Source: an uncultured Bacteroidales bacterium (GTDB lineage: Bacteria; Bacteroidota; Bacteroidia; Bacteroidales; Paludibacteraceae). Taken from it: DNA of 36,025 nt. Below, piece after piece: positions 10,447 to 36,025 of the stretch. A program made the translations under genes and the position numbers. The DNA lies in the NCBI GenBank assembly GCA_902798385.1, contig CADBWK010000023.1, positions 1-36,025 on the forward strand, given 5' to 3'. The notes under the pieces are model-generated. The model saw only the letters and a list, made by a program, of their open reading frames with translations. It did no database searches and was not told the DNA's origin. Numbering within the stretch: the stretch's first letter is position 1; every line of letters starts with the position of its first letter.

Positions 10447-11694
10447 TTATTTTCTACTTGATTGCGGAGCTGTTTCATAAACAGATTGCAGGGTGTAGTT
10501 CGGATCGTTGTTCTCCCATGAATCAACCATAGCGCGTACTGCTTGTTCTCCGTTGCCTATATATTTACCTGTCTGGTGGTTGATTACGCCGAATCCGTCA
10601 TTGCCTCCTTTGCTGTTTCCATTGTCCCAATAGAGTGCGGGGATGCGTCTGTCCCGCATGGCTTTGCATATATATCGGAAGTAATAGAGACGGAATTCCT
10701 CATCGGCAGCCGAAGCGCGTCGCACGGCACCGAACTCTCCGAAATAAACAGGAATACCCCGGCGGACATACATGTTATAGAGTCGGTTAAGCATGGAGAC
10801 ATAGGCGTTTTCGTCCGAACCGGGAACGACATCGACTCCGGTGTGTCCCCATTCGTTCTTGTCCGCCGATCCGGCAAAGTCCCAGGGGTCGTAACTATGA
10901 ACGGCTACCAGAAGCCGGTTCGGTACTGCATCTTCCGGCAGAACGAGGTTTTCAACCGTCAGATCGGGATTGCATACATAACCAGGAACGCCGATGTATC
11001 GGTGACTGTTTTCCCCGCCGGCAGCGCGGATAGCATCCACGCAGACTTGGTTCCATTCGTTCAGCACGCGGTACTGCGCTCCTCCGTCGGTACGATTGGC
11101 ACCGTTACCCCAACCGCCGTCCTGGATCTCATTCAGGGTCTCAAAAACAAGCCATTCTCCGTAATTGGCAAAACGTTTGGCGATTTGCAACCAGACCATG
11201 GTGAGTTCCTGTTTGGTACGGGTGTTGACATCTTCGTTTTGTGTTGCCGCTGGCAGGTCAATCCAGTGTGCGCCTTTGCTCGGGGTGTCCGATGCTCCGA
11301 AACCGTCATGGTGGATGTTGATGATGACAACGAGTCCGGCTTTATGCGCCATATCGACGAGTTCGGCTACGCGATCCAACCATCCTTTCTCGATGGTGTA
11401 AGTCGGTGCGTTACCGATGTGCCCCATCCATGTGACAGGGATACGAACGGACTTGAATCCTGCCTTGGCTACACCGTTGAAAGTCTGCTGGGTAGCGGCT
11501 TTATTGCCCCATCCTTCTTCGTACGAGCAACCATTGTAATGGGCATCCATCTGGTTACCGAGGTTCCATCCGATTCCCATGGACATGGCGAACTGTACCG
11601 CTTCGTTATCCTGCGGACGTGTTTTTTTCTCTTGTGCCTCACAGGCGGATAAACATAATACGAGGCTTACGATAATGAATAGAAGTTTTTTCAT
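10447..11694 (-). CDS. GH5 endo-beta-1,4-glucanase lipoprotein (GH5_4-like)
   Basis: Predicted 415-residue endoglucanase. The start at 11694 gives a lipoprotein signal peptide ending CLSAC (Cys18), 13 nt after the GH94 stop. Family motifs are GIGWNLGNQMDA (about 40-51), RIPVTWMGHIG, INIHHDG (about 126-131), FETLNEIQDG with the acid/base Glu189, and PVYFGEFGAV with the nucleophile Glu320. The GWNLGN start and overall layout resemble subfamily GH5_4, which cuts cellulose, mixed-linkage glucan or xyloglucan; the exact substrate cannot be read from sequence. It is the second gene of the beta-glucan operon and probably acts outside the inner membrane, feeding SusCD. Confidence 0.92.
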   Translation of the reverse strand: MKKLLFIIVSLVLCLSACEAQEKKTRPQDNEAVQFAMSMGIGWNLGNQMDAHYNGCSYEEGWGNKAATQQTFNGVAKAGFKSVRIPVTWMGHIGNAPTYTIEKGWLDRVAELVDMAHKAGLVVIINIHHDGFGASDTPSKGAHWIDLPAATQNEDVNTRTKQELTMVWLQIAKRFANYGEWLVFETLNEIQDGGWGNGANRTDGGAQYRVLNEWNQVCVDAIRAAGGENSHRYIGVPGYVCNPDLTVENLVLPEDAVPNRLLVAVHSYDPWDFAGSADKNEWGHTGVDVVPGSDENAYVSMLNRLYNMYVRRGIPVYFGEFGAVRRASAADEEFRLYYFRYICKAMRDRRIPALYWDNGNSKGGNDGFGVINHQTGKYIGNGEQAVRAMVDSWENNDPNYTLQSVYETAPQSSRK

Positions 11695-11707
11695 TGGTAA
11701 TTGGTGA

Positions 11708-14152
11708 TTATAAAATGATTTCCACTTCGTGGCGTCCCGGTTCATAGGGTAGAATAGTCGGTTGGTCAGGACGGTTTTTGCCGTTGGGGTTCTTGACCGA
11801 GATGACATATTCCGCTTCCCGCCATTTTCGAGTGACTGTGTATTCTTTCAGATTGGAGGGGATGCAGGGATTGACCATCAGCCCGTTGTAAGTCGGTCGG
11901 ATACCGAGTATATGCTGGCTGATGACGAGCCAGTTCCATGCAGCAGTGCCGGTGAGCCAACTGTTCTTGCCTTCACCGGGTTTGGCAGCCTCTTTTCCGG
12001 CTACCATCTGACAATAAACATAAGGCTCGACGCGATGTAGTGTCTGATCCTTTATCCAAGCCGGCGAGATCTTGCGGTACAGATTCCATGCGTCATTGCC
12101 CCGACCGGCTTCTGTCTGAGCGATAATGACCCACGGGTTGTTATGGCAAAAGATACCTCCGTTCTCTTTGTAACCGGCAGGATAAGTGGATTGCTCTCCG
12201 AGTTCGATATGATAAGTCGTGTAAGCGGGATAGTTGAGTACCATACCGTGTTCGCTGTCCAGGAGTCTTGCTGCGCTGTCTAATGCTTTTTCAGGCATGC
12301 CTTGCTCGGCACCGATACGCGCCATACCGCACCAACCCTGACTCTCGATGAAGATCTGTCCTTCTTCGTTCTCGTGCGAACCGACCTTGTTGCCGTAGTA
12401 GTCATACGCGCGCAAGTACCACTCGCCGTCCCAACCAAACTGCTCAACCGCCTTGCACATCTTCTCGATCTCGGTCTCAAAAGCATCAAACGGCATGTTT
12501 TTCGCTTTCAGCAATTCCACGAACTGGCGTCCGCAATAGACGAACATACCGGCAATCATCAGGCTCTCTGCCTTGCTGCCTTCGTTCTTGTTACCCGTTG
12601 TTTGGAAGGACTCGTTCGGATCCATAGAGAAGCAGTTGAGGTTCAGACAATCGTTCCAGTCAGCGCGACCGATGAGCGGCAGACCGTGAGGTCCGAGGTT
12701 GTTGACCACATGGTAAAAACTGATACGCAGGTGCTCCATCAGGCTGACCTCTGTACCGGGTTCGTTATCCCATGGCACCATCTCGTCGAGGATGCTGAAA
12801 TCACCTGTCTCGCGGATATATGCCGTTGTACCGAAGATAAGCCACATCGGGTCATCGTTAAAACCGCCGCCTATATCGTTGTTACCGCGTTTGGTGAGCG
12901 GCTGGTACTGATGGTAGCAACCGCCGTCCGGGAACTGGGTCGAAGCGATATCGATGATACGCCGACGGGCACGCGAAGGTATCTGGTGTACAAAACCCAC
13001 GAGATCCTGGTTGGAATCGCGGAAACCCATACCGCGACCGACACCCGACTCAAAGAACGAAGCCGAACGACTCATGCAGAACGTGATCATACACTGATAC
13101 TGGTTCCATATATTGACCATACGGTTCAGGCGTTCGTCATCACTCTCTACATGGTACTTGCTCAGCAACTCATCCCACAGTGCGCATAGTTCAGCAAACG
13201 CCTTATCGACCGCCTCCACAGTAGCAAAACGCTTCAACACCTCGTGCGCGCGTGCCTTATTAATAATATGATGATCTTTCTCGCCCAGACTGGTCAGTTC
13301 GCCGTTGTTGGCAGCGAATTTCTGCTCCTGCGCATTCTCTGCATAGCCAAGCACGAAAATAAAGTCTCTGCTCTCTCCTGCAGCCAGTTCCACTTCGATA
13401 TAATGGCTCGCGATCGGACTCCAGCCGTGCGCCAGACTATCCGCCGAATGACCGGCCATCACAGCCTGCGGTTCATTCAGGTCGTTATACAGACCGACAA
13501 ACGACTCGCGGTCTGTATCATAACCGTTCACCGGACAATTGACGGCGTAGTAAGCATAATGATCACGACGCTCTTTGTATTCGGTCTTGTGATAGATGGA
13601 AGTCCACTCACCGCGCTCGATCTCCACCTCACCGGTAGAGAGGTTACGCTGGAAATTCTCGCCGTCCGTAGCAGCATTCCACAAACACCACTCCGCATAG
13701 CTGAAGAGTTTCAAGTTCTTTTTCTCCTGACTTAAGTTTGTCAGCGTCAGTTTCTGAATCTCCGCCTTCACACCCAGCGGCACAAAATGCAGCACGCTTG
13801 CGCGGACACCGTTCTTCTCGCCCGTGATACGGGTGTAGTTCAGACCGTGACGGCATTCGTACTTGTCCAGCGGCGTCTTGCAAGGTTTCCAGCCCGGATT
13901 CCATACACTCTCGCCGTCCTTGACATAGAAATAACGGCCGACACTGTCCATCGGTACGCTGTTATAACGATAACGCGTGATGCGACGGAACTTAGCGTCC
14001 TTGTAAAAATTGTACCCGCCTCCGGTATTGGAAATCAAACCGAAGAAATCCTCATTACCCAGATAGTTAATCCACGGGAAAGGAGTCGCGGGATTCGTGA
14101 TGACGTACTCTTTATTTACATCATCAAAATGTCCATATTCGTTGTGTTTCAT
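11708..14152 (-). CDS. GH94 cellobiose phosphorylase
   Basis: Predicted 814-residue cytoplasmic enzyme, close to the usual length of cellobiose phosphorylases. It has no signal peptide. The N-terminal half is the beta-sandwich domain ([32 protein letters not shown]); the (alpha/alpha)6 catalytic half contains [18 protein letters not shown] (about 369-386), [13 protein letters not shown] (about 427-439) and RADWND (496-501), whose Asp is the proposed general acid. It would convert cellobiose plus phosphate to glucose 1-phosphate and glucose. The start at 14152 is chosen because the promoter ends at 14175; a longer upstream frame crosses that promoter. First gene of the beta-glucan operon, divergent from the AraC-type regulator. 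Confidence 0.95.
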
Positions 14153-14174
14153 ACTAATCATCCAAATTACGCTG

Positions 14175-14206
14175 CAAAAGTACTGCTTTTTTTCGACACA
14201 CACTAA
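14175..14206 (-). promoter_or_regulatory. Promoter of the beta-glucan operon (GH94 first)
   Basis: On the minus strand TTAG (14203-14206, one base off TTTG) is followed by 20 nt and TACTTTTG (14175-14182). The 20-nt core AAAAAAAGCAGTACTTTTGC is identical to that of both tRNA promoters in this window. The start codon of GH94 lies 23 nt downstream of the box. Confidence 0.8.
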
Positions 14207-14256
14207 TACTTTTCCGACCGATTTTATGCGTTTTTTGTTAAAATTGTAAAATAGAG

Positions 14257-14288
14257 TTTGCAAAAACCGATTTTTTGTAGTACTTTTG
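14257..14288 (+). promoter_or_regulatory. Promoter of the AraC-type regulator
   Basis: TTTG (14257-14260), exactly 20 nt, then TACTTTTG (14281-14288), a perfect match to the Bacteroidales consensus. The chosen ATG at 14306 lies 17 nt downstream. About 50 nt separate this -33 box from that of the divergent GH94 promoter. The 9-mer ACCGATTTT occurs at 14217-14225 and 14266-14274 and could be a binding half-site (weak). Confidence 0.82.
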
Positions 14289-14305
14289 CGGAAAATTTGG
14301 AAAAT

Positions 14306-15163
14306 ATGCGTGAATCGTTTACGGAAATCACTCGGCTTGAACCGCTGGATATTTTCTATGTCGGCGAACGGCACAAGACCTTTTTCGAGTACCCTGCGCA
14401 CAGCCACGAAGTGTATGAATTGAATTTTGTGGAGAACGCTGCAGGAGCGACCCGAACCATCGGTGACAGTCATGAGACTATCGGTAGCTTGGATCTGGTG
14501 CTGATGACCGGTGCCAAGTTAGTGCATGTATGGGAACAGGGCACGTGTCCCGAGCAGGACATTCATGAGATCACCATTCATATAGATCCGGGTACTTTTC
14601 ACGGTGCACTGATGGACAAACGCGCTTTTGTCAGCATCCGGCATATGATCGATCGCGCCCAACGGGGGCTGGCTTTTCCAGAACCGGCGATTCAGATCCT
14701 GCGCGAAGACATCATCAATCTCGCGCATAGCAACGACAGTTTTGCATCGGTCATTCGCCTCTTTAACCTGCTCTATCGACTCTCGCTCGTAGAGGATGCG
14801 CGCGAACTATCCTCCTCGGCGTTCTTGGACGCCCGCGAAGAGAATGAGGACGAACGAGTTCGCAAAGTGAAGGACTATATCACCGCGCACTATATGCACG
14901 ATATCAGTCTGAAGAATATGGCGGATCTGGTATGTATGACTGACGAATCGTTCTCGCGCTTCTTCAGAAACAAAACAGGCCGCACGCCGAACAGGTATCT
15001 CATTGACTACCGTCTGGGCATTGCGGCACGTATGTTGCTCACGACCAAACTGTCGGTTGCGGAGATCAGTTTCTCATGCGGGTTCAACACCCTCAGCCAT
15101 TTCAACCGTCTTTTCCGAGAGTCCAAAGGGTGTACGCCTTCGGAGTTCCGTGAGCGGTTCTAA
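14306..15163 (+). CDS. AraC-family transcriptional regulator with cupin sensor domain
   Basis: Predicted 285-residue cytoplasmic regulator. The start at 14306 follows the promoter; an in-frame ATG at 14258 lies inside the promoter and is rejected. The N-terminal part has the cupin motif [18 protein letters not shown] (about 28-45), usually the sugar-sensing domain. The last 100 residues are a double helix-turn-helix ([61 protein letters not shown]). It is divergent from the GH94-led operon and shares a 153-nt control region with it, so regulation of that operon in response to cello-oligosaccharides is the most likely job (inference). Its stop overlaps the recombinase stop tail to tail by 4 nt. 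Confidence 0.92.
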
Positions 15164-16725: not shown

Positions 16726-17310
16726 TTATTTAGTCCAGTTATTCTCACTAAAGAGTCCGAAGAGCTCAGCGTCCACGCGGTCAATGACTTTGCGGAAGTC
16801 CTCGGGGTTGTTCTCAAAATCCATCCCGTCGGACTCGATGACCAGCACACGTCCTTCGTACTTATGGAAGATGAAGTCCTCGTATTTATCGTTCAGGTCC
16901 TTGAGGTAGTCGATCTGCATGGTCTGCTCGTAACCCCGCCCGCGTTTCTGTATCTGCGCGATGAGTGCCGGTACGGACTTACGCAGATAGATCATCATAT
17001 CGGGCATCTTCATCTGCGATTTCATGAGATCGAACAGTTCCATGAAGGTGGTAAAGTCCCGTTCGGAGAGGTCACCGCGTTCGTAGTTGTTACGCACGAA
17101 CACATAGACGCCCTCGAAGATCGAGCGGTCTTCCTTGAGGAAATAGGTCTCCAGACAGAACGCCCAGCGGTTGATGTCACTGTAGTAATCCTCCAGGTAC
17201 GGGTTGAAACTCACGCTCTCAAAGCGTGGCTCCCACCCGTAGTACTTCGCCAACATCTTCGTCAGCGTCGTCTTACCTGCTCCGATATTTCCGGCGATGG
17301 CTATATACAT
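16726..17310 (-). CDS. Deoxynucleoside kinase paralogue with internal deletion
   Basis: Predicted 194-residue protein of the deoxynucleoside kinase family, with P-loop GNIGAGKTT, the lid QKRGRGYEQ and the C-terminal DRVDAELFGLF. Compared with its tandem paralogue it lacks about 17 residues: the helix after YFL is cut, so that YFLKE runs straight into the DRSIFEGVYVF catalytic motif. The deletion is in frame (51 nt) and removes the stretch equivalent to NKRFKDVVEIGKQDKYIIQ. The enzyme may be inactive, have altered specificity, or depend on its paralogue as a heterodimer; bacterial kinases of this family can form pairs. Its ATG overlaps the stop of the upstream amylase gene as TAATG. Confidence 0.88.
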   Translation of the reverse strand: MYIAIAGNIGAGKTTLTKMLAKYYGWEPRFESVSFNPYLEDYYSDINRWAFCLETYFLKEDRSIFEGVYVFVRNNYERGDLSERDFTTFMELFDLMKSQMKMPDMMIYLRKSVPALIAQIQKRGRGYEQTMQIDYLKDLNDKYEDFIFHKYEGRVLVIESDGMDFENNPEDFRKVIDRVDAELFGLFSENNWTK

Positions 17311-19727
17311 TATTGAACGCGCGCGCCTGTGATAGTATATACATGGTCTCCGCGTACGATCAGTACTTGACCGTTACGCAAGATCTTATAAGCTTTCGTA
17401 CCCTCGCCGCTCATCACATGCTCGATCGCTTGGTACTCGATGTTGTCGAATGTCGGAGCTTGTACCGGTGAGCCCGTGAACACTTTCAGTTCGCCCGGCG
17501 CCAGCGAATAGGAAGAGCTGGCCCGAGTGCCTCCGTTCAGGTAATCATACCATGTACCGGAAGGTAAGTTCAAGGTCATGTTGTCGGTCGGCGAGAAATT
17601 CGCCATAGCAAACACATCATTGCCCCAACGCACCGTGCGGGTCACGTATTTCGTACCGATATTCACCTCCGTCGGATCGCCTTCAAACACTTGCGGCATC
17701 AGACGCGTACGCAACGTGATGAACTGCGCGCACTTGGTGAAGGCATCTACACGGCTGGCATTCGTGAAATAGCCCATGGTTGCCGGGTTCGGTTTGGTAC
17801 CGGTACGTTCGTTGTAGTTGATCGAGATATCATAACCGATCTCTTCGTATTGCCACAACATGTGCGGACCGTTCAGCAGCACATTGAACGCCACTTGCTC
17901 CGCTACACGACCCAAGCGAACGGACGCATTGGATTTCACTGCCGAGTGTCCGTCTTTTTGCGCCAGATATTGCATTCGCTCCTCATCATGGCTCTCGCAA
18001 TACGATACGTAACCGTCTCTGTTCGCGTCGGCAAAGCTGTTCTTTTCGTTATTCAGATTGCCCTCAGTCGTGTAATAATACGCTTCGCACAAACCTGCAC
18101 CTGTCCAGCACAACATGCCGGCATTGATAAGATCCTGCTGACCGCTGCTCCAATGCTCCAAGATCATGTACGCATCCGGAGATACCGCCTTGACGCCGTT
18201 CGTGTAATAATACTTCAGATTATCCACCGCATCATTGGATGTACCGCACAAGCCATGACTCAGATCCAGACGGAAACCATCCACTTTATACTCGTTCAGC
18301 CAATACTTGAACACGCGGGTAAACATCTCCTTGGCCGGCGCAAAGCCATGATTCCATTCCTCATCGCCATAGCCGTTACTGTTGCCGCCATTCTCAGGCG
18401 GATAGAGGTTAAACCACGGGTTGATGTTCAACTCACTCTCCGTCTTCGTACTGCTGGTCCACGGATAGAGTTTAGCCATCGGGTTCTGGCCCGTTGTATG
18501 GTTGAATACCATATCGACAATGACCGCGATGCCGCGTTTGTGACATTCGTCGATCAGGGCTTTCAGGTCTTCCGGCTTGCCATAGGTCTTATCGACTGCG
18601 AAATAGAGTGTCGGGTTATAGCCCCAACTCTCGTTTCCTTGGAACTCCGATACCGGCATCAGCTCGATCGCATTGACACCGAGGTTCTGGAGATAATCCA
18701 AACGTTCCTTCACGCCTTGGAAGGTGCGCTTGGTTGCATAGTCATATACCCACAACTCGTAGATGATCAGGTTGTTCTTATTCGGGCGCCGGAAGTTCAG
18801 CGTAGCTTCCGACCATTGGTACTGCGGTTTATTGGTCTGGATAACCGTCACATAACCGCCGTCTGCACCGCGTTTCGGATAATCGATCAGCGTCGGGTCG
18901 ACTTGCTTGGGTTCCCATTTATCATCCGGATGCAGCACTTTCTCTGAATACAGATCGCAGATCTGCTTCTTCACGCCGTCCGCACGCTCCACTGCATATT
19001 GGAAACGATACTCTTTGCCCGGCTCCAGATTGTTGAGTGTGATCCAGAAATAGAAACCGTCCTTTTTCATCTGGTATGCGTTGTCCAGTTTCCAATCGGT
19101 CATATCGCCGATCACGAACACGTGCTTAGCCGCCTGGGTCTTGCTGCCTGCATAGGTACAGAGCGTCACCTTGGTCGGATCGTTGGCATCGTAGTAGATA
19201 CCGTTGGTTACGCCCGAAGGACGCTTAGCTGTCACAACAGATGCAGGGGTGAAGTTATCCCAAATGTCCGCGTTCTCTTCGCCGAGCCATACATAGATAT
19301 CACTGTTGGCAGAGGTCTTACCCTCTTTCGTTCCGTCCTTTCCATTGATCTTACCGTCATGGAACACAAACACCAAGGCGGTCACCTCTGTGCCGGTAGG
19401 GACCTTGTAGAAATCGTACAAGTTGTTGATCACCAACTGCCATTTGTCATTACCCAGACTGGTCAATTTCGGAGCAGAAGTCGAACGCCATGAACCGCCG
19501 ATGACACCGTCCTTACCATTATACTGCCAATCCTTGGTGGCTGTACAATAGCCGGTATGGGCATAACATTGTGTGGCACCTACCATGCCTTTATTTCCCT
19601 TCGTGGCATCAAACGTGATGGTAACCGTACCGGTATAACCCGGTGTGATGATCGCCGGATTAGTAGTCACCTGCGCCGAAACGCAAACCGCTACCAACAA
19701 CGCCAAACTGAAAACTATCTTACGCAT
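17310..19727 (-). CDS. GH13 amylase/pullulanase-like enzyme, secreted, with C-terminal tag
   Basis: Predicted 805-residue secreted alpha-glucan hydrolase. The start at 19727 gives the signal peptide MRKIVFSLALLVAVCVSAQ. Residues about 20-140 form a beta-sandwich-like domain of unknown family. Residues about 195-290 resemble a CBM48-type domain (KHVFVIGDMTDWKLDNAYQM). The GH13 barrel follows: AVIVDMVFNH (region I), GFRLDLSHG (nucleophile Asp), MILEHWSSG (proton-donor Glu), YCESHDEER (third Asp). It ends with the shared tag AYKILRNGQVLIVRGDHVY...GARV. The layout with a CBM48-like domain suggests a debranching or maltodextrin-active enzyme. It differs in type from the other three GH13 enzymes. 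Its stop overlaps the kinase start. Confidence 0.9.
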   Translation of the reverse strand: MRKIVFSLALLVAVCVSAQVTTNPAIITPGYTGTVTITFDATKGNKGMVGATQCYAHTGYCTATKDWQYNGKDGVIGGSWRSTSAPKLTSLGNDKWQLVINNLYDFYKVPTGTEVTALVFVFHDGKINGKDGTKEGKTSANSDIYVWLGEENADIWDNFTPASVVTAKRPSGVTNGIYYDANDPTKVTLCTYAGSKTQAAKHVFVIGDMTDWKLDNAYQMKKDGFYFWITLNNLEPGKEYRFQYAVERADGVKKQICDLYSEKVLHPDDKWEPKQVDPTLIDYPKRGADGGYVTVIQTNKPQYQWSEATLNFRRPNKNNLIIYELWVYDYATKRTFQGVKERLDYLQNLGVNAIELMPVSEFQGNESWGYNPTLYFAVDKTYGKPEDLKALIDECHKRGIAVIVDMVFNHTTGQNPMAKLYPWTSSTKTESELNINPWFNLYPPENGGNSNGYGDEEWNHGFAPAKEMFTRVFKYWLNEYKVDGFRLDLSHGLCGTSNDAVDNLKYYYTNGVKAVSPDAYMILEHWSSGQQDLINAGMLCWTGAGLCEAYYYTTEGNLNNEKNSFADANRDGYVSYCESHDEERMQYLAQKDGHSAVKSNASVRLGRVAEQVAFNVLLNGPHMLWQYEEIGYDISINYNERTGTKPNPATMGYFTNASRVDAFTKCAQFITLRTRLMPQVFEGDPTEVNIGTKYVTRTVRWGNDVFAMANFSPTDNMTLNLPSGTWYDYLNGGTRASSSYSLAPGELKVFTGSPVQAPTFDNIEYQAIEHVMSGEGTKAYKILRNGQVLIVRGDHVYTITGARVQ

Positions 19728-19748
19728 AATCAAAAGGATTTATCGTGA

Positions 19749-20698: not shown

Positions 20699-22504
20699 TT
20701 ATTGAACAAGTCTTCCTTGTGCATCATAGACGTGCTCGCCACAGCGGATGAAGAGTTGTCCGTTCTCCAGAAATTTCTCTGCTTGGGCTGCTTTATTAGC
20801 GCCGACTGTCTCTACGTCAAAAGTACCATTCCCGGTGTAATACACAGCATAGTCAGACCCTTTGATAGCCTGCGTATAACCTGCCGGAGCATTATCATTA
20901 GCAGCGGTACCGAGCATCAACTTGACGCTTCCGTACTTACCTTGAACAGTAGCGCGATAGTACCCGCTACCTGCCTCCTCCGTCACCGTGCTCTCAGAAT
21001 GGATACCGGCTTTCTTGCGCGCGGTAATCATCTTCTTGATCTCCGATTTATATTTCATCCAATGCGGCCAGAACACGCACGGCACACCCGGCATCGAGAG
21101 CAGATACGCATTACAACGCATCATCAGGCTCTGGTCGTTGATGCTCGAGCCGTCACCTTTCTCGTTCGGCTCATTGCCATTCTGGCGATTGAAGGTGTCA
21201 TGGTTGTCGATGAACGTCACGGCGTACTTGCTGTAACCCTTACCTCGCAGACCTGCGTTCTTACACTTGGAGTAGTTCTTCTTGTAAATACCGTCACGGT
21301 ACACATTATACTTGGCATCGAAATCGAACGCTAAGGTATTCTTGCCCGCCTCGTCAATACGTTGCTTGAGCACACCCGCATCACCAAGCCAATACTCAAT
21401 CACCGAGAAATAGGGCTTGGAAGCCGTATTGTAAGCATTGATATGACTCACGTGAAAACCGCCCGCATAGTCATAGCGCCAACCGTCGTACTTCATTTCC
21501 CCTTTCATCCACTGCAGATAGGCCTTGCACATATTCTGCACATTCACATTCTTATGATCCCAGTCGCGGGCAGACGGGTAGTTCGCATCATGCTGACCGT
21601 CATCGTCATTTCCAGTTGAGCCGCAGCCTCCCTCATCATTCTTGGTCAACCAGTCCTTAGTGGGGGAGAAAGAACCATAACTGCCGAAATCATGCGTCTT
21701 CAGTCCGTCGCAGTTACCGGAACTGTTACCGATATGATTGATGACGATGTCTGCAATCACGCGCACGCCTTGGTTATGAAGAGCACTAATCAAGCCACTC
21801 AACTCCGTCGGGGTACCCATTCTGCAATTTTGTCTGCTGTATATGAGTGGGATATAACCCAAACCTCCTTGGGAAATACCGGAAGCCTGTGCCGAGGGCG
21901 GCAGCCAAACCATATCGAAATAACTACTTATCTCCGAAACCTGTCCCGACAAGGTCTGCCACTTGGTGTTACCATAACCGTTGTCGGTGTTGGAGTTCCA
22001 ATAGAAAGCCTGCAGCATTATGTCCCCACATTCGGAGGGAACAGCGCTCGCATAATCCGACGGAACTACAGGATCCGTTCCCCCACCGGGGGTATCGCCT
22101 CCACCGGGCGTGTCACCGCACCCGCTACCCGGGCCGATATACAACTCATCCGCATTATTCTTGATTTTGATATAGAAATCATAGCACGCGGAGGCTGAAC
22201 ACACGTAACGGTCGCCCTGAAGAGAGAAAGCCGAGACAGATGAGCTATTGAGCGTCTTCACCCAAGCCACCTGATTGCCAATATCATATAACTGGCAATA
22301 ATCGCCCGAGTTCACATAGATATGCGCGAGGTACTGTTCGAAGCCCTCAAACGAGTCCGTATGAGTTGCCTCGTACACATCTTGGCCGTTCACCAATATA
22401 CCGAATTGCGCGTAAGCATCAGAGCTTGCGGCCAAGAACATCGTACATAACGCCGTTATGGATAATAACGAGGCGACCTTCTTGGATAAATTTATATGTC
22501 TCAT
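20699..22504 (-). CDS. GH13 alpha-amylase, secreted, start inside the upstream gene
   Basis: Predicted 601-residue secreted alpha-amylase. The ATG at 22504 lies inside the preceding amylase gene in a different frame; it is accepted because it gives a good signal peptide (two Lys, hydrophobic core, cleavage after AYA at about 32), and no later start does. Residues about 33-127 are the YDFYIK module, then a GDTPGGG-type linker. The GH13 domain has VIADIVINHIGN (about 249-260), GWRYDYAGGF (nucleophile Asp345), VIEYWLG (Glu370) and FIDNHDTF (Asp436). The WLPPSA and GLGYIP segments resemble plant/archaeal-type amylases (GH13_6/7). The C-terminus is the shared tag KFLENGQLFIRCGEHVYDAQ. Confidence 0.93.
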   Translation of the reverse strand: MRHINLSKKVASLLSITALCTMFLAASSDAYAQFGILVNGQDVYEATHTDSFEGFEQYLAHIYVNSGDYCQLYDIGNQVAWVKTLNSSSVSAFSLQGDRYVCSASACYDFYIKIKNNADELYIGPGSGCGDTPGGGDTPGGGTDPVVPSDYASAVPSECGDIMLQAFYWNSNTDNGYGNTKWQTLSGQVSEISSYFDMVWLPPSAQASGISQGGLGYIPLIYSRQNCRMGTPTELSGLISALHNQGVRVIADIVINHIGNSSGNCDGLKTHDFGSYGSFSPTKDWLTKNDEGGCGSTGNDDDGQHDANYPSARDWDHKNVNVQNMCKAYLQWMKGEMKYDGWRYDYAGGFHVSHINAYNTASKPYFSVIEYWLGDAGVLKQRIDEAGKNTLAFDFDAKYNVYRDGIYKKNYSKCKNAGLRGKGYSKYAVTFIDNHDTFNRQNGNEPNEKGDGSSINDQSLMMRCNAYLLSMPGVPCVFWPHWMKYKSEIKKMITARKKAGIHSESTVTEEAGSGYYRATVQGKYGSVKLMLGTAANDNAPAGYTQAIKGSDYAVYYTGNGTFDVETVGANKAAQAEKFLENGQLFIRCGEHVYDAQGRLVQ

Positions 22505-25500
22505 GGTTCTTCTTTGAATTATCGATTATTTCTTCTAAGCCTTCTACAAAGCCGTCGCAGTCCACATCCAGTACGGCACGCCAGCATTCTTCGTTCCATA
22601 CATAGCAAGCGTTCTCATACAGGAAGATATCTTGTGTCTGCGCTTTCTTCACGCTCGTCTTACCCTCGTTGAAGATGACATAGATCTCTTTGAGGTCTGC
22701 CGGCATCGTGTAGGTGTACCAATCGCCGTCTTTCGTCGTCCATTTGATACCCGGCCATGCTGTCGTCTTGCCATCCAGAGCGTAAGCCTTGTCTATGTTA
22801 CGTCCGTTCTCCACGCGACGCGTGAACGCGTATATATAAAGGTCTTCCCACTTCTCCGGTTTGATATAGCGTACGTTCAGCGCACCTTGTTGCGGAGCTT
22901 TGTAGGTATAGGTCTCCGAATAAGTCGGCGTACGTTGTTGATCCAACTGAGCATACGCCTTCACGGTCGTGGTGGTCTTCACGGTGAAGGTAGCCGATCC
23001 TTGACTCGGATTAGAACCCGTTGTCGGTTCGCTGCCATCCAAGGTGTAATAGATCATCGCGTTCGTAGCACCTACCGTACTGATCGTCACCTGTTGACCT
23101 TCGTTCTGATCGCGGAAGAAACCGCTCTCCGGCGCAATAACCAAGTCAAATTCCGGATTCAGTTCGGTATCGCAGTCGATCAGCACCTCCTCTTTCTCTT
23201 CGGTCTCTTTGCCTTCACGCCAACCGTAGCAAGCATCGTAAACGAGCTCGAGGCTGTTCGATTTCACGTTCACACCGCCGCAGTCATTACCCGAACTGAT
23301 CTGGCAGTTGATCGTATCCATATCGCTGCTGAACTCATAGGTATACCAACCGTCGGCATCCTGATAGATACGCTGTCCCGGGTATGCGCCCAAGAGGTTC
23401 GACGTGATCGGGTTGCCTTCTGTATCCTTACCGACTACCGTCCATGCATAGACATATACCTTACTCCACTGTTCCGGTTTGTTGAAGCGCAGACGGATAC
23501 CGCGTTGCAGCGGTTCACGATAGGTGTAGGTATATTCCTGTACTTTCGTTTGCGCGCTGCCGCATACCGCGATCGCTTTCACGGTGGTTGTCGTAGTGAA
23601 ATTCAACGGAGCGGTGTACTCGCTCGAAGAGGTGGTCGGAGTCGAACCGTCCGTGGTGTAGTAGATATGGGCATTGCCGCTACCGCCTACTGCTTCCATT
23701 GTGACGGTGATACCGTTCACGTTATCTTCAAACGCCTGACTCGGGGTCACGATCAGACCCGGCGCTACATCGCCGTTGGCCTGAACCCACATCGCATAAC
23801 CGTTACCGGAAGCCACTTTGGTGAAGCCGCTGAAGGTATTGCCTGCTTTGTCACCCAAGCACAGAATCAGATAACCGTTCTTACCCTGTACCGTACACTG
23901 ATAACCGTTGCTTGTAGCAGACTCATCGCTCACCGGACTCTCCGAGTGAACACCGGCGAGGTGACGGGCATTGATCATATCCTTGATGGCTGCTTTATGC
24001 GCTATCCAGTGCGGATAGAACACACACGGCACGCCCGGCATACCGAGCAGGAACGCGTTTGCTTGCAGCAGACGGTCTTGCATTCCCGGCTTCATCGAGT
24101 TACCCAGACCACCGAACTCATTGCCGTCACGAAGGAAGGTATCGTGGTTATCGATAAAGGTCACAGCGTACTTAGCCATACCGGCACCCAACATACCGCT
24201 TGCTTTACAGCCGTTATAATTGAAGGCTGCAATACCGTCATTGAACGCATTGTACTTACCCGGGAAATCAAGCGACATCGTGTTTCCCTGTGCATCGCTG
24301 ATCGCCTGTTGGATAGCGCCAACACTGGCCCACAACTCCATGAACGAGATGTACGCACCGCCTGCACGGTTGTAGTCACCGATATGACTTGCATGGAAGC
24401 CCTTGCAGTAGTCGTAACGGAAACCGTCGTAGTGCATCACGTTGATCAACCATTTGGCGTAAGCGCGGCACATCTCACGTACGTTCTCCTGGTCATGCGC
24501 CAAGTCACGTGCAGCGGCATAGTTCGCCTCGTTCTTACCGTCATAGGTCGGACCGTCATCCGGTGCTCCCGTAGCGGTATTCCAGCACTCAGCAGCAGCC
24601 TCTTTGCAACTCTCCATATTCATCTCATCCGTGTTGCATATCCACGAGCCGTCCGGCTGATATACACCGTACTCGCCGAAGTCCTGCACTGCGAAGTCGC
24701 ACCAGCTGCTCATGGCCTCGAGGTGGTTAACCACCACGTCGGCTACCACTTTCGTACCGCTGTTATGGAATGCTGCAATCAGCGTCTCCAGATCACTACG
24801 GCTACCCCAGTCGCTGTTCTGGTTCGAGTATTGTCTCGGGTGATAACCCGTTCCGCTGGCGTATGCACTAGGCGGGAGCCATACCAAATCGAAGTATGCA
24901 CCGATCTCACCCGATTGTGCGATCAGGGTTTTCCAGCGCGTGTTACCGTACAGATCCGTTCCGCGCTCCGGGTCGTTATCCTTGTAGCTGTCGTAATAGA
25001 AGCCCTGCAGCAATACATCCGTACACTGACTCGGAACAGAACTGGTCGGCGTAGGGCCTCCACCGTCTTTGGATACATATACCTCATCCGCGCCCATGAT
25101 CAACTTGATATAGAAATCATAGGAGCCGTTCTCCGTCACTTTCCATTTGCCATCTTCAACGGCAAACTGATAGCCCGCAGGATCGAGGTTCACGATCCAC
25201 GCAGATTTTGCGCAAGTATCATACAACTGTACGTACTGACCAGCCTCTAACGCCAGACCGAGCACCATCCACTCGTTCCACTCCGTCTGTTGCGTGTTCT
25301 TCGTTCCCGCAACGTAATTGCCACCTACCATCAGACCATACGACTCTTCACACGGAGTCACCGGCGCATACGGCTCACCCGAACCGCAGTTGCTGCCCTG
25401 CCCGATATACAGCTGATCGGCCATGTGCTTCAGCTTGATATAGAAGTCATAGCAACCAGCCTGAGAGCATGCGTAATATCCGCTGCCTTCCGTGAACGTA

Positions 25501-25754
25501 TTCGGACAGGACTGATGGGTGTACGGATCCAAAGACACCGTCCACGTGTCACCGTTAGACGTGTTGCACAAGCAGCAATGATCCCCTGCTGCCAACTGCA
25601 CATGCGCCAAGTACTCATCGTACTCACCCGATTGATCCTTACCCCTATAATCAGCAGCAAAGATCGTGTTGCCGTTCACTAAAATGCCGTAACTCTGAGC
25701 AAAGGAACATACAGCCCAGAATAACAAAACGAAAATTGTTCCAAACTTCTTCAT
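22419..25754 (-). CDS. Large multidomain GH13 alpha-amylase with two CBM26-like domains
   Basis: Predicted 1111-residue secreted amylase (signal peptide ending CSFAQ). Two YDFYIK modules come first (about 21-120 and 138-228). The GH13 domain has VVADVVVNH (about 336-344), GFRYDYCKGF (nucleophile Asp448), FMELWAS (Glu473) and FIDNHDTF (Asp538). Then two pairs alternate: a chitobiase C-terminal/Fn3-like domain (IYYTTDGSTPTTSSSEYTAP; MIYYTLDGSEPTTGSNP) followed by a CBM26-like starch-binding domain (RLRFNKPEQWSKVYVYAWT; NVRYIKPEKWEDLYIYAFT). The shared C-terminal tag (YKFIQEGRLVIIHNGVMYDV) ends the protein at 22419, inside the next gene. It starts 18 nt after the previous stop with the same leader, AACTAATACAATGAA, as that gene. 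Confidence 0.93.
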   Translation of the reverse strand: MKKFGTIFVLLFWAVCSFAQSYGILVNGNTIFAADYRGKDQSGEYDEYLAHVQLAAGDHCCLCNTSNGDTWTVSLDPYTHQSCPNTFTEGSGYYACSQAGCYDFYIKLKHMADQLYIGQGSNCGSGEPYAPVTPCEESYGLMVGGNYVAGTKNTQQTEWNEWMVLGLALEAGQYVQLYDTCAKSAWIVNLDPAGYQFAVEDGKWKVTENGSYDFYIKLIMGADEVYVSKDGGGPTPTSSVPSQCTDVLLQGFYYDSYKDNDPERGTDLYGNTRWKTLIAQSGEIGAYFDLVWLPPSAYASGTGYHPRQYSNQNSDWGSRSDLETLIAAFHNSGTKVVADVVVNHLEAMSSWCDFAVQDFGEYGVYQPDGSWICNTDEMNMESCKEAAAECWNTATGAPDDGPTYDGKNEANYAAARDLAHDQENVREMCRAYAKWLINVMHYDGFRYDYCKGFHASHIGDYNRAGGAYISFMELWASVGAIQQAISDAQGNTMSLDFPGKYNAFNDGIAAFNYNGCKASGMLGAGMAKYAVTFIDNHDTFLRDGNEFGGLGNSMKPGMQDRLLQANAFLLGMPGVPCVFYPHWIAHKAAIKDMINARHLAGVHSESPVSDESATSNGYQCTVQGKNGYLILCLGDKAGNTFSGFTKVASGNGYAMWVQANGDVAPGLIVTPSQAFEDNVNGITVTMEAVGGSGNAHIYYTTDGSTPTTSSSEYTAPLNFTTTTTVKAIAVCGSAQTKVQEYTYTYREPLQRGIRLRFNKPEQWSKVYVYAWTVVGKDTEGNPITSNLLGAYPGQRIYQDADGWYTYEFSSDMDTINCQISSGNDCGGVNVKSNSLELVYDACYGWREGKETEEKEEVLIDCDTELNPEFDLVIAPESGFFRDQNEGQQVTISTVGATNAMIYYTLDGSEPTTGSNPSQGSATFTVKTTTTVKAYAQLDQQRTPTYSETYTYKAPQQGALNVRYIKPEKWEDLYIYAFTRRVENGRNIDKAYALDGKTTAWPGIKWTTKDGDWYTYTMPADLKEIYVIFNEGKTSVKKAQTQDIFLYENACYVWNEECWRAVLDVDCDGFVEGLEEIIDNSKKNHETYKFIQEGRLVIIHNGVMYDVLGRKL

Positions 25755-31482: not shown

Positions 31483-34400
31483 TTATTTTACCAGACGACC
31501 TGTTGCGTCATACTTCTTCTCTCCACGGAGAATGTAAAGTTGACCGTTGATCATCATCTTAACAGGAGCCTCAGCTGCGTTGATTAGCTCGCAGTCAGTA
31601 GTGGTCTGACCTTGCATCGGCATTCGTTTTACTTTCTTGCCAGGTGCGAAACCAGCTGCAGGAACTTCTTGCAACAGATTGTACAATACATATGCACGAT
31701 GAGCATCGAGGTGGTTATTCGTGCCAATCGGACGAAGCTCATTATTGAAGAGCATGTATATATCATTCTCACCTGTTTCATTGATTGTGTTCAATGCAGC
31801 TGCATCCAGATCTTCGAACGTTCCGACAAGTGCACCATTTGCAACCGGAGCACCTGCCGTTTCCTCTCCATATACAACGCGCAATGTTTCAGCTGTTGCT
31901 TGGAAGATGTACGGTTTACCTGCTTCAGGAGCATCTTCTCCTACAAGGTAAGCTTCTGTACCAGCGTTATTTCTGTAAGTCAAGTTCCAGAACGTAGCAC
32001 CTTCAATATGGGTAATGTTCTTCGCCAAGCAAACAGTGTAGTGACGACCGCATTCCAAACCAGAACGAACAGTCTCATAAACCGGAGTCGGCGGTTCCGG
32101 AGTCTCTTTCTTGTAGAGCTGTACCTTTTGTTGTCCATCAGCTGCATAGAAACGGAAACGTGTTTGGCCAGAACTACTATTGAAACGGATGCAGCGCTCC
32201 GAGAACAAAAGCTTCGTCCAATCTGTCTCATAGGAAATAGTTACTTCTGCTGCATCTGCGATTGCATCTGTGAAGATAAGTTTCGAATTGGAACCATTAT
32301 CTTGGAAATACTTGTCGTCATTCACTTGAAGCGTATATTTTCCTTCGGAAGCAGCAGCAATAGTAATCACTGCAGCAGCTGCCGGTTTAGCAATCGTATT
32401 GCTGCTAATGGTTGCCAATGCATAATTGCTTGCAGCATCGTTATAATCACCGTTCCAAACGTAAGCATCTGTACCATCTTCGTAAACAAGTATATAATCT
32501 CCGCTCCAATCAGCCTGCGAAGCAGTTACTTTTACATAATTGTCTCCTACAGGAGCCGGGCCACTAACAGTCAAGCCGTTAACTACAATTGCATCACTAG
32601 AGATTGTTTCAACCGTAGCAGTTACAGAAACGGATGTTGTTCCCTCGGTGAGAGGATCGGGATCAAATGTCCAATCGATGCCTTCGGTAATTTCTGCATC
32701 TGATCCATTGGAATAGTGACCCATTACCGTCAATCCTGCAGGATTAAAGGATTGACCTTCGGTATATTCCAACTCGGTTGCGGTGCCGGAAATAGCGATA
32801 CTTTCCAATGTAGCCGCAGCCGAAACTGTAACCGTAAAGCTTGCTGTTGCACCGGTATAGTTGCCCAAATCATCCGGAATGGTAGCAGTAATGGTTGCCG
32901 AGCCTGCTGCTGCTGCATGCAATGCAGCCTCAGCGCCTGTTCCCTCGATAGTCACCGCCGTTCCACTTGTAATCTCATAAGAAATCGCTTTCTTGTTCGG
33001 GTTCGAAGTAGCCGCAATTGCCGACAAAAGGATGTCATCATCACCAACTGCCATGTTCATATCGTCGATAGAGATAGAAGCAGTCAATTTAGCTTTTTCG
33101 GACTCTGCGGTGTAGAATACAACCACATTTAGAGCACGTGTTCCCTTATTGCTACCACTCTTGCCTAATACAGCAGAGAATTCGCCGGCTGCAGAAGGAG
33201 TTATGATAACCAACTTATCATCTGTACCATCCAAAGCAGCAGTCGCATTAGTCCAAGCGGTTGTAGTTCCTTCTTTTGCTAAAGATTCAGCGTATGCTTT
33301 TGCTGTAGCATGCCATTCGACTTTAGTAATCGTCACACCCGCCTTCGGAGTAAATGCAAGAATATTATTCTCATACAAGCGAGTTTCTGCAATGAGAGTT
33401 CCACTCGAATAGTTGCCTGCAAGATAGTTGGTGACCTTTGTGCCAGTATTCTTTTGTGCCGTAATGGTAACAACATTACTATTCCAAACAACCTCCTCAT
33501 CTGCTGCGTCGTCATAACTTGCACGACTGAGGTCAAACGACATCGAATACGTACCAGCCTCATTAACCGTAATAGTATAAGTTGCATTTCCTGCAGCATA
33601 AGTTGCATCGCCGTCAGTATGTGCTGTAATCACAGCCGTTCCAAGTCCTCCTGCAAGTGCAATAACACCTTCACCAGTAACCGTTGCTACGGACTCATTG
33701 TTAGATGCGTACGATGCAATAGTTAAACTATGCGGGTTAGTCAAAGTCGGTGCGCTCCAAGAAGCACCTTGCTCGATAGTCTCGGAAACAGGATCATAAG
33801 CCAATTCCGGATCTTCTTTCTCATTAACGGTAATATCTGTCTGTGCCCAAACAGCGAGCTGTTGATCTGTATTATGGAATGTGGGATAACCAATTACGTC
33901 GATATTGGCATTCTCTGCTGCTGTTACTCCACTCTTTCCGGCATAGAGAGTGATGGTATTCTCGCCATCTGAAATTTCACCTGTACGAGCAGTAGCATCG
34001 CCACTTTCAACGGCATCTGTTACATTTACGCCAACAATCTTAATACGTTTACTCTCGTTTGCTGCGAAGTTTGCATTGAGTTGAGCAATCGTCAAAGTGG
34101 TAACAGGAATTTCTGCACCGGTTGTCTTTGTTCCTGTTGTTGCTGCAATTGCAGTAATCTCAAATTTGCCTTGATATGTAGCTGTAGTTACCTCGTATTG
34201 ACCATTCAGTTTGTCACCGGCACTAAATCCATGACCGGACTTATAAATCAGCGCACCGGCTGTTGCGTCCTCAATGAAAGCATTGCTACCATCAACAAGA
34301 GTTACAATTGCATTGGTCAAGTTAAGCAGATACGAAGTACCGGTTGCCTCTGCTTTCAATGCAGCCAAGCCTGTAACCTCCGGCATACCTCCGCCACCTG

Positions 34401-36025
34401 TTTGCTCTACATCGTCCACCGAACGCGGCATAATAGAGATAGCAGCTTCATCGTCATAACGCACTACACCGATAATCGTATATATTGCGCCATCCAACAT
34501 AGTCGGATTATAGAGTTGCGTATTGAGTGCCAAAGTGTTGACACCATCCGAGAAACTGGTGGTAGAAGCCGTATAAGTAAGGTTCTCTAATTTTACTACA
34601 GTTCCTTGCTCATTCGGATATCCGCTCGTCAAAGCAGCAATAGTAGTTACACGCGGAGTAATAGCCTCTGCGGTAGTAACAGTTACATCTGTAGAAACCA
34701 AAGTCGTCATCTCCGGATAGCCTTGATACAATTTTGACTTTGTACCAATAACTACTCCATTCAGTTTGTTGCCTGCTACAAAATTGTGACCGGACTTATA
34801 AAGCAGAATACCCTTTTCATTAGCAGCATCAGCGATCCATGCACGACTGCCATTTACGCCGGTTACAACCCAATTGGTAACAACCACATTAAATGCTGTT
34901 TCTGAAGAAGTAGTAGCCTCCAACAATGCAGCCAAAGACTCCAACGCTTCAACTTTTGTGAAAGTCTTCTCTGCTACAGCACTTACATCGCTACCTTTAA
35001 CAGCAATTGCCTTAACGGTGGTTGTGCCATCTGCATTTACTACGAACGGAGCGGTATACTCTGTCGAACTCGTTGTCGGATCAACACCATTCGTAGTATA
35101 ATAAATATGATCTGCATCATCGTGAGAAATAGTAACCGTCGTTGAACCAACGAAGTTTACATCACCCGAGATAGACGGAGCCTCAATTGCAGGAGCCTCT
35201 CCAAAGTAAATTTTAATAACCTTGATTTGGAGGTTCTTAGCATTAGTAACCTTGATTGAATGAGCCACATTAGCTTTTTGATTAGCTGGTGCTATATCGA
35301 AAGTATATGCATCATTTTTACATCCTGATGCTGCTGTACTAACAGCTGTTTCTCCTTGATAGATATTCCAAGCTACATCAGCAGCACCTCCGCTATTACC
35401 AGAAACAACAATCTTTTCAATTGGACTTGTAAATTCTGGAAGCAAGATATATGCGCCACTCTTACCAATAAAGAAATAATCACTTCCGCTTACTTTATAA
35501 TTAGTCGGAGCATGACATGTTACTGAATAACCAGAAACAGAGTTGGTGTAGGTCCCATCTTCTGTTGTATTTGATGTCGGGAATCCCCAGTTTCCATCAA
35601 TAAGATTTAATGTTACATCCGGACCTTCGGTAATCTCATAAGCAGCAGTTGCTACTTCGCTATCGTCATAACTATCTTTTACCGCATAAGCCTTGATGGT
35701 TGTATTTGCAGAAACTGGGATTGCTGCGGAGTATACTGACGAACCAGTTGAAGGAGTAGTTCCATCGGTGGTGTAATAAATTGTTGCACCAGCCGTAGAA
35801 GAAATAGTTACGTTCTGTGTACCTTCGTACGAACCAGAAGCCGGACTAAATGTCGGAGTCGCACAAGTCGGAGTTACAGGAGTGCTACCTGTCGGCGAAT
35901 AAGTCAACTTCAATCCAGCAACTTGCGCATTATATGTTGAATTATTCGTGTTGTTTTTATATATACATACCTTGTAAGCTGTGTTAGCAGATGTTTCAGT
36001 AAGCGTCCATGTGTTACTTCCGCTT
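31483..36025 (-). CDS. Very large multidomain surface protein, 5' end beyond the window
   Basis: The frame stays open to the window edge, so the start is outside; at least 1513 residues are encoded. Visible from N to C: two chitobiase C-terminal/Fn3-like domains (IYYTTDGTTPSTGSSVYSA; IYYTTNGVDPTTSSTEYTAP) separated by a beta-rich region; two copies of an OB-fold-like domain (each with YKSGHxFxAGxKLNG); Ig-like (Big) domains, including LESIAISGTATELEYTEGQ; a domain beginning DNYVKVTASQADWSGDYILV; and the shared C-terminal tag MMINGQLYILRGEKKYDATG. No catalytic motif is seen in this part. It is probably secreted and displayed on the surface, as adhesin or binding protein, or is the tail of an enzyme whose active domain lies outside. 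One sampled line is clearly more AT-rich than the operons to the left. Confidence 0.85.
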   Translation of the reverse strand, partial: SGSNTWTLTETSANTAYKVCIYKNNTNNSTYNAQVAGLKLTYSPTGSTPVTPTCATPTFSPASGSYEGTQNVTISSTAGATIYYTTDGTTPSTGSSVYSAAIPVSANTTIKAYAVKDSYDDSEVATAAYEITEGPDVTLNLIDGNWGFPTSNTTEDGTYTNSVSGYSVTCHAPTNYKVSGSDYFFIGKSGAYILLPEFTSPIEKIVVSGNSGGAADVAWNIYQGETAVSTAASGCKNDAYTFDIAPANQKANVAHSIKVTNAKNLQIKVIKIYFGEAPAIEAPSISGDVNFVGSTTVTISHDDADHIYYTTNGVDPTTSSTEYTAPFVVNADGTTTVKAIAVKGSDVSAVAEKTFTKVEALESLAALLEATTSSETAFNVVVTNWVVTGVNGSRAWIADAANEKGILLYKSGHNFVAGNKLNGVVIGTKSKLYQGYPEMTTLVSTDVTVTTAEAITPRVTTIAALTSGYPNEQGTVVKLENLTYTASTTSFSDGVNTLALNTQLYNPTMLDGAIYTIIGVVRYDDEAAISIMPRSVDDVEQTGGGGMPEVTGLAALKAEATGTSYLLNLTNAIVTLVDGSNAFIEDATAGALIYKSGHGFSAGDKLNGQYEVTTATYQGKFEITAIAATTGTKTTGAEIPVTTLTIAQLNANFAANESKRIKIVGVNVTDAVESGDATARTGEISDGENTITLYAGKSGVTAAENANIDVIGYPTFHNTDQQLAVWAQTDITVNEKEDPELAYDPVSETIEQGASWSAPTLTNPHSLTIASYASNNESVATVTGEGVIALAGGLGTAVITAHTDGDATYAAGNATYTITVNEAGTYSMSFDLSRASYDDAADEEVVWNSNVVTITAQKNTGTKVTNYLAGNYSSGTLIAETRLYENNILAFTPKAGVTITKVEWHATAKAYAESLAKEGTTTAWTNATAALDGTDDKLVIITPSAAGEFSAVLGKSGSNKGTRALNVVVFYTAESEKAKLTASISIDDMNMAVGDDDILLSAIAATSNPNKKAISYEITSGTAVTIEGTGAEAALHAAAAGSATITATIPDDLGNYTGATASFTVTVSAAATLESIAISGTATELEYTEGQSFNPAGLTVMGHYSNGSDAEITEGIDWTFDPDPLTEGTTSVSVTATVETISSDAIVVNGLTVSGPAPVGDNYVKVTASQADWSGDYILVYEDGTDAYVWNGDYNDAASNYALATISSNTIAKPAAAAVITIAAASEGKYTLQVNDDKYFQDNGSNSKLIFTDAIADAAEVTISYETDWTKLLFSERCIRFNSSSGQTRFRFYAADGQQKVQLYKKETPEPPTPVYETVRSGLECGRHYTVCLAKNITHIEGATFWNLTYRNNAGTEAYLVGEDAPEAGKPYIFQATAETLRVVYGEETAGAPVANGALVGTFEDLDAAALNTINETGENDIYMLFNNELRPIGTNNHLDAHRAYVLYNLLQEVPAAGFAPGKKVKRMPMQGQTTTDCELINAAEAPVKMMINGQLYILRGEKKYDATGRLVK

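Follow-up and report, generated by a model that had tools for sequence, protein, structure and literature searches.

Two amylase genes sharing 86 nucleotides

The DNA analysed here, referred to as the window (36,025 nucleotides), is a 36-kb contig of a 1.92-Mb genome that is 74% complete. Among named organisms, those closest to it are MAGs of Paludibacteraceae and Bacteroidales, and many of them bear ruminant sample names. On the minus strand two amylase genes, here called A and B, overlap out of frame, and the features of this junction are as follows.

22419..25754, minus strand: gene A, encoding a secreted GH13-type alpha-amylase of 1111 aa that ends in a type I tag
20699..22504, minus strand: gene B, a 601-aa secreted GH13-type alpha-amylase with a 32-residue signal peptide
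22419..22504, minus strand: A/B overlap of 86 nt, in which B is read in the +1 frame; kept in 16 genomes
22419..22496, minus strand: C-terminal tag of A, YKFIQEGRLVIIHNGVMYDVLGRKL, and stop, by translation; three short beta strands predicted
22409..22504, minus strand: predicted signal peptide of B, MRHINLSKKVASLLSITALCTMFLAASSDAYA (then QFG), residues 1-28 within the overlap
22505..22524, minus strand: region within A where translation of B would start; it is A-rich, with adenine at -3 and -6 and little predicted pairing

Besides the GH13 domain, gene A encodes chitobiase-C/Fn3-associated and CBM26 starch-binding modules, and gene B also ends in a type I tag of its own, KFLENGQLFIRCGEHVYDAQGRLVQ. 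Both ORFs and both translations at 22419..22504 were re-derived from the sequence and agree with the original prediction; the A frame ends with HETYKFIQEGRLVIIHNGVMYDVLGRKL and a stop, and the B frame reads MRHINLSKKVASLLSITALCTMFLAASS and, after a break, DAYA-QFG. The claim that the 86 bases encode the whole 32-residue signal peptide holds for residues 1-28, that is, the n- and h-regions, and fails for the A-Y-A cleavage motif, which lies beyond the A stop. The first position of a B codon is the second position of an A codon and, since B is in the +1 frame, the wobble position of A is the second codon position of B, which largely sets whether a residue is hydrophobic or polar. In line with the original description, the A/B pair of this window has no later start of B by a filter that asked for a Met near or after the A stop, at most 90 codons away, with K or R behind it.

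The overlap is present in at least 16 of the 178 genomes of the genus, its own included, with a length of 83-104 nt, and in these orthologues the second frame is open and starts inside the first. The 16 genomes (G000, the own genome, G003, G006, G015, G049, G118, G124, G127, G143, G164, G180, G188, G207, G208, G211 and G215) were obtained by DNA searches with the overlaps of the window and of G124 and by reading junctions in the fetched loci. Although all 178 genomes were included in the searches, many are incomplete, and the junctions were read in part of the 158 with a B-like match, so that 16 is a lower bound. The first ATG of B lies 83, 86, 95 or 104 nt before the end of A, with the frame kept in all 16; the distance includes an additional upstream Met in G127 (95) and in G164 and G215 (104), and in G049 and G118 the usual start codon is not ATG and the start is shifted. 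Recurrence in 16 genomes rules out an assembly error as the source of the overlap, although these genomes are related, and the counts and p-values given below are not independent.

The N-termini of B in this set have the positive n-region, hydrophobic core and AxA-type motif of Sec signal peptides. Net charge is +1 to +5 and peak hydropathy 1.96-2.59 (n=16), and the signal peptide ends in AxA in 12, AxG in two and LxA in two genomes (the last two by eye). The mean hydropathy peak is 2.27 (1.96-2.59), against 2.68 (2.22-3.32) for 22 conventional B signal peptides, which were hand-picked with G183 included, paralogous amylases and rows with the first Met away from the signal peptide left out, and were measured over the first 34 residues instead of the first 40. 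Weaker signal peptides are as expected of a compromise with the A tag.

A scan of the fetched loci gave 44 same-strand ORF pairs overlapping by 20-160 nt. Of these, 26 have a hydrophobic N-terminus, the other 18 being weaker. The A/B family accounts for 16 of the 26, and by eye no tag was seen at the end in any of the remaining 10. Elsewhere in the window, 10447..11808 and 11708..14473 (both minus strand) show an apparent 101-nt overlap, which is probably false, because a better start, MKKLLFIIVSLVLCLSACEAQ (lipoprotein-like), lies past the upstream stop.

The C-terminal tag

As originally described, tags of the same type also close five further ORFs in the window (20699, 31483, 25773, 19749 and 17310). 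Besides the amylase pair, the tag-bearing ORFs thus include 17310..19733 and 31483..35913 (both minus strand), the latter with chitobiase-C and Fn3-associated repeats and a frame open up to the contig end. In the C-termini of the fetched loci, type I tags (GxLxIxxGxxYDxxGR) occur beside type II tags (MYNILGQxVDxxYxGIVIQNGHK); the two have a [YF]-[DN]-x-x-G element in common, and the order differs as if permuted.

The tag is best read as a probable T9SS sorting domain of the short kind. Its host carries T9SS genes, as judged by two models: SprA_N, of the T9SS translocon, is found in 39 of 41 genomes, the own genome included, and in 0 of 14 control genomes, and T9SS_sortase, which we take to be of PorU type, scores 1006 bits in the own genome with a cut-off of 420, two of the 14 controls being matched below the cut-off. 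For the final 60 residues of A, structure prediction from 58 aligned tails places three strands near the end, with a mean pLDDT of 68 and about 87-92 over the last 20 residues. In the available account of the short T9SS CTDs of Prevotella intermedia (PMC11969387), these likewise have three predicted strands, Gly and basic residues are conserved in them, and their host carries T9SS genes; the A tag differs from them in that [YF]-D-x-x-G follows the L-x-I strand, apparently another order, and in having no model match.

This last point is what favours the alternative that the dual coding is real and the tag is some other C-terminal module with no role in secretion sorting: six C-terminal 80-residue pieces gave no match to a Pfam or NCBIfam sorting domain at E values up to 10. 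The translocon and sortase genes of the host and the predicted three-stranded element resembling the P. intermedia CTDs count against it, as does the fact that many signal-peptide-bearing proteins carry the tag at their very end (in a search of C-termini only), and we regard it as possible but the poorer account. The earlier designation of the tag as a targeting signal is therefore retained as one suggested by the T9SS host and not by a Pfam or NCBIfam model.

Constraint in both frames and the start of B

The synonymous test was performed with 15 genomes; G164, whose overlap is identical to that of G215, was left out here and also in the control-window, novel-residue and RNA consensus analyses. 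In the overlap, A codon pairs for the same residue differed in 610 of 1861 cases (0.328), against 0.506 expected from the single-coding body of A, a ratio of 0.65. None of 894 windows (28 codons each, mutually overlapping) was as low as the overlap, the minimum being 0.78. Since A is a mosaic gene, the junction is imperfectly gauged by its body, and three controls were added, of which the near windows and two subsets agree. The windows just upstream of the overlap had ratios of 0.85-1.04, and two species subsets gave 0.68 and 0.72 for the overlap itself. The single-coding tag of B, present in 10 of the 15 genomes, differed in 253 of 526 pairs (0.481) and the overlap tag of the same 10 genomes in 217 of 864 (0.251), corresponding to ratios of 0.99 and 0.56 with slightly different reference sets. 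Purifying constraint is thus seen on both frames of the overlap, and the prediction that the dual coding of C-terminal tag and signal peptide is kept in orthologous pairs, with depressed synonymous change, was borne out.

The start of B has a context of its own. Members of the phylum have no Shine-Dalgarno sequences, and in Flavobacterium johnsoniae initiation is described as helped by adenine at -3, -6, -12 and -13 and by low pairing (PMC6847099). Adenine is found at -3 of the B ATG in 16 of 16 genomes, compared with 94 of 345 chance +1-frame ATGs in the A body, and at -6 in 14 of 16, compared with 130 of 345; no enrichment of adenines was found at -12 or -13 (4/16 and 6/16). Between -20 and +20, bases are unpaired with a mean probability of 0.589 at the B start and 0.416 in the controls; the p-value of 9e-9 overstates the evidence, since the 16 genomes are related. 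Apart from the pairing in G049 (0.12 of controls lower), B starts with the -3 and -6 adenines and the low pairing of a Bacteroidota start, which points to initiation independent of A, with coupling through RNA unfolding as a possible alternative. The coupled translation suggested originally is not supported, as an overlap of 86 nt exceeds the coupling distances reported, mostly for E. coli, and B has its own start context. According to a review, coupling is most efficient at -4 to +3 nt and was absent at a 25-nt overlap in one systematic E. coli study, and the spacing rules likely vary between species (PMC12548453). With the first ATG 83-104 nt before the end of A, coupling of A and B by termination and reinitiation is unlikely by this rule from mostly E. 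coli data.

The nucleotide conservation could instead reflect an RNA structure or regulatory element and not a signal peptide of B. A 4-bp consensus helix, which sits just inside B, was detected in the start region from -24 to +56 (z -6.6 against column shuffles, 15 genomes), and the overlap with 40 nt downstream gave z -2.8. However, the consensus energy of the helix is weak (-2.4 kcal/mol), the overlap alone gave z -0.33, and the start region is less structured than the controls. Moreover, the +1 frame is open and hydrophobic in 16 of 16 genomes, as coding predicts, and we consider an RNA element improbable.

Somewhat less probable still is that the +1 frame is open by chance, as a by-product of a conserved tag, with the true start of B elsewhere. 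The type I tags are conserved and tend by themselves to be moderately hydrophobic in the +1 frame. Of 169 distinct type I tags that lack the overlap, 31 are open in this frame, and the open cases have a mean peak of 1.10, compared with -0.47 in the +2 frame, so that part of the signal peptide comes free. Nevertheless, only four of the 169 are both open and reach a peak of at least 1.96; this threshold is the minimum among the 16 overlap genomes, all of which reach it by construction. Random recoding, in which the A protein was fixed and synonymous codons were drawn from the own usage of the A genes, left the +1 frame of the window gene open in 5.2% of cases and open with equal or higher hydrophobicity in 0.36%; across the 16 genomes the values were 0.7-5.2% for open frames and 0.015-0.77% for open frames with at least the observed hydropathy peak. 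In addition, the synonymous suppression is confined to the overlap, the start context is favourable and the later-start filter gave no usable alternative, and for these three reasons a misannotated start of B was ruled out.

A programmed +1 frameshift fusing A to B, with the overlap within the fusion protein, would fit the +1 position of B, as required for a slip of the prfB type at CTC TGA, but we dismissed it as the least credible reading, because the A stop is TGA in six and TAA in 10 of the 16 genomes, so that the slip site is not conserved. Moreover, with a slip at the stop the +1 frame of the overlap would never be translated, which does not fit the constraint on this frame or its conserved start in a favourable context.

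It is thus very probable that the A/B segment is a conserved dual-coding junction, in which frame 0 encodes the tag of A and the +1 frame the Sec-type n- and h-regions of B, with selection on both.

Origin and spread of the junction

The overlap is absent in 28 of the 45 genomes of the B tree, and in 27 of these 28 the first ATG of B lies between 141 nt after and 11 nt before the stop of the upstream amylase. The upstream protein ends in a type II tag in 16 of the 28, counted by eye. In this set, the upstream gene of G037, G032, G178 and G179 is a shorter paralogue and not A, G162 has no upstream amylase, and for G037 and G179 the start of B is unsure, its first ATG lying within the presumed signal peptide. 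Orthologues with B after the A stop and another signal peptide had been named as the finding that would speak against the shared segment, and here the outcome was mixed: 28 genomes are without the overlap and G183 has the same tag with a conventional signal peptide, but this does not make the overlap an artefact. It is one state among several, confined to some lineages.

In G183 (L127, G183:C4:112500-119500) A carries an overlap-type tag, and B starts 14 nt past the A stop with MKRILSILLIALCTLGVQA, a conventional signal peptide. The +1 frame of this tag is open, with GTG for ATG and a peak hydropathy of 1.22, compared with 1.96-2.59 in the 16 overlap genomes, and this is below 1.50, the mean of its own open random recodings. 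It has five residues that are absent from the overlap genomes, which only just exceeds the 0-4 found in the others, and apart from the hydropathy and the start codon the decay is mild. G183 may represent either a reversion or an ancestral-like state. The overlap appears to be the derived state, because 28 of the 45 compared genomes are without it and G183 combines the A tag with a conventional B signal peptide; similarly, the tag probably came first and the signal peptide second, since the tag is widespread on other proteins and other B orthologues have ordinary signal peptides.

A single origin followed by clean descent was not borne out, as the overlap is scattered on the trees of the catalytic domains. 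The presence of the overlap changes eight times on the B tree (45 rows), nine times on the A tree (39) and three times on the rpoB tree (27), with G183 in each tree and outside the change count; for shared genomes the changes are five for B (26 rows), six for A (24 rows) and three for rpoB. The advantage of the species tree over the A and B trees is modest, and the rpoB search, made in 40 of the 45 genomes, gave no match in 13, five of the 16 overlap genomes among them. G006, with the overlap, and G192, without it, are neighbours on both catalytic trees and are similar over much of both proteins. Their sharpest differences are in the last ~60 residues of A and in the signal peptide of B, although they also differ at the C-terminal end of B and in the N-terminal part of A. 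This pattern, together with the scattered trees, suggests that the junction is kept, lost or exchanged as a unit, and the modules on either side seem to recombine.

Module shuffling is strong in the A/B orthologues (L032-L049, L124-L155). For example, G000 and G015 are 89% alike in the catalytic domain of A and only 56% in that of B. The module following the signal peptide is of the FGILVNG or of the KTLYLNTGG type, by species.

From these comparisons, an event at the A-B junction may have deleted the original start and signal peptide of B, after which the +1 frame of the A tag, fairly hydrophobic by nature, would have been recruited as the new signal peptide. Ribosomes would start B independently at the A-rich, little-structured site within the A coding sequence, and Sec would carry both proteins across the inner membrane, after which the tags, as probable type IX sorting domains of the short kind, would direct them to the cell surface. 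In the exaptation reading, the intrinsic hydrophobicity of the +1 frame makes the end of one exported protein exaptable as the export signal of the next. We offer, tentatively and with less than even confidence, the scheme that a sorting tag gave rise to an N-terminal Sec signal by exaptation of its hydrophobic +1 frame, and that the overlap locks both in one inheritable junction while the flanking catalytic modules are swapped by recombination.

We compared this arrangement with known systems, as far as they are described in the available parts of the sources. In the overlapped and embedded spanins of phages (lambda Rz/Rz1 and P2-type; PMC6139136), the downstream gene begins within the upstream one, out of frame with it (+1 in lambda), and its product has an N-terminal lipoprotein signal for export. 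Depending on the phage, the two spanin genes are embedded, overlapped or separated, much as the A/B junctions are overlapped or separated. Unlike A and B, however, spanins are phage lysis genes with lipoprotein signals, and the available text describes no targeting tag at the end of the upstream protein (PMC6139136); A and B are cellular amylases, and both readings of their overlap look like export signals, at opposite ends of the proteins. Long out-of-frame overlaps are known in prokaryotes, phase 1 being commoner among the long ones (PMC3887535). The A/B overlap resembles the long unidirectional overlaps in being on the same strand and out of frame (PMC3887535, PMC12548453), and is of phase 1 by the ATTAA example of PMC3887535, although the verbal definition there reads otherwise. 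At 86 nt it is long, as more than 80% of overlapping pairs are reported to share less than 30 bp (PMC12548453). It differs from the known long overlaps in its occurrence in 16 species, in its measured constraint and in its site, where relatives have a conventional signal peptide. In E. coli gfcC-gfcD the gene of an outer-membrane protein also overlaps the 3' end of its upstream partner, but those are described as short tandem overlaps, and dual coding is not analysed in the available text (PMC8592465).

Among the matches listed in the overlapping-gene, signal-peptide, spanin, T9SS and dual-coding literature, which was covered by titles and abstract openings, with subscription journals mostly outside, we found no sorting tag and signal peptide sharing DNA. 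What appears to be new is this sharing of DNA by a sorting tag and a Sec signal in cellular enzymes, long overlaps being already known. The junction thus provides a cellular case of two targeting signals of different proteins on shared DNA. It also indicates that a long overlap in a metagenome-derived genome can be real, though readily mistaken for a start-site error. With 15 distinct natural versions of the overlap and one relative, G183, without the second use, the origin of a signal peptide by overprinting becomes testable.
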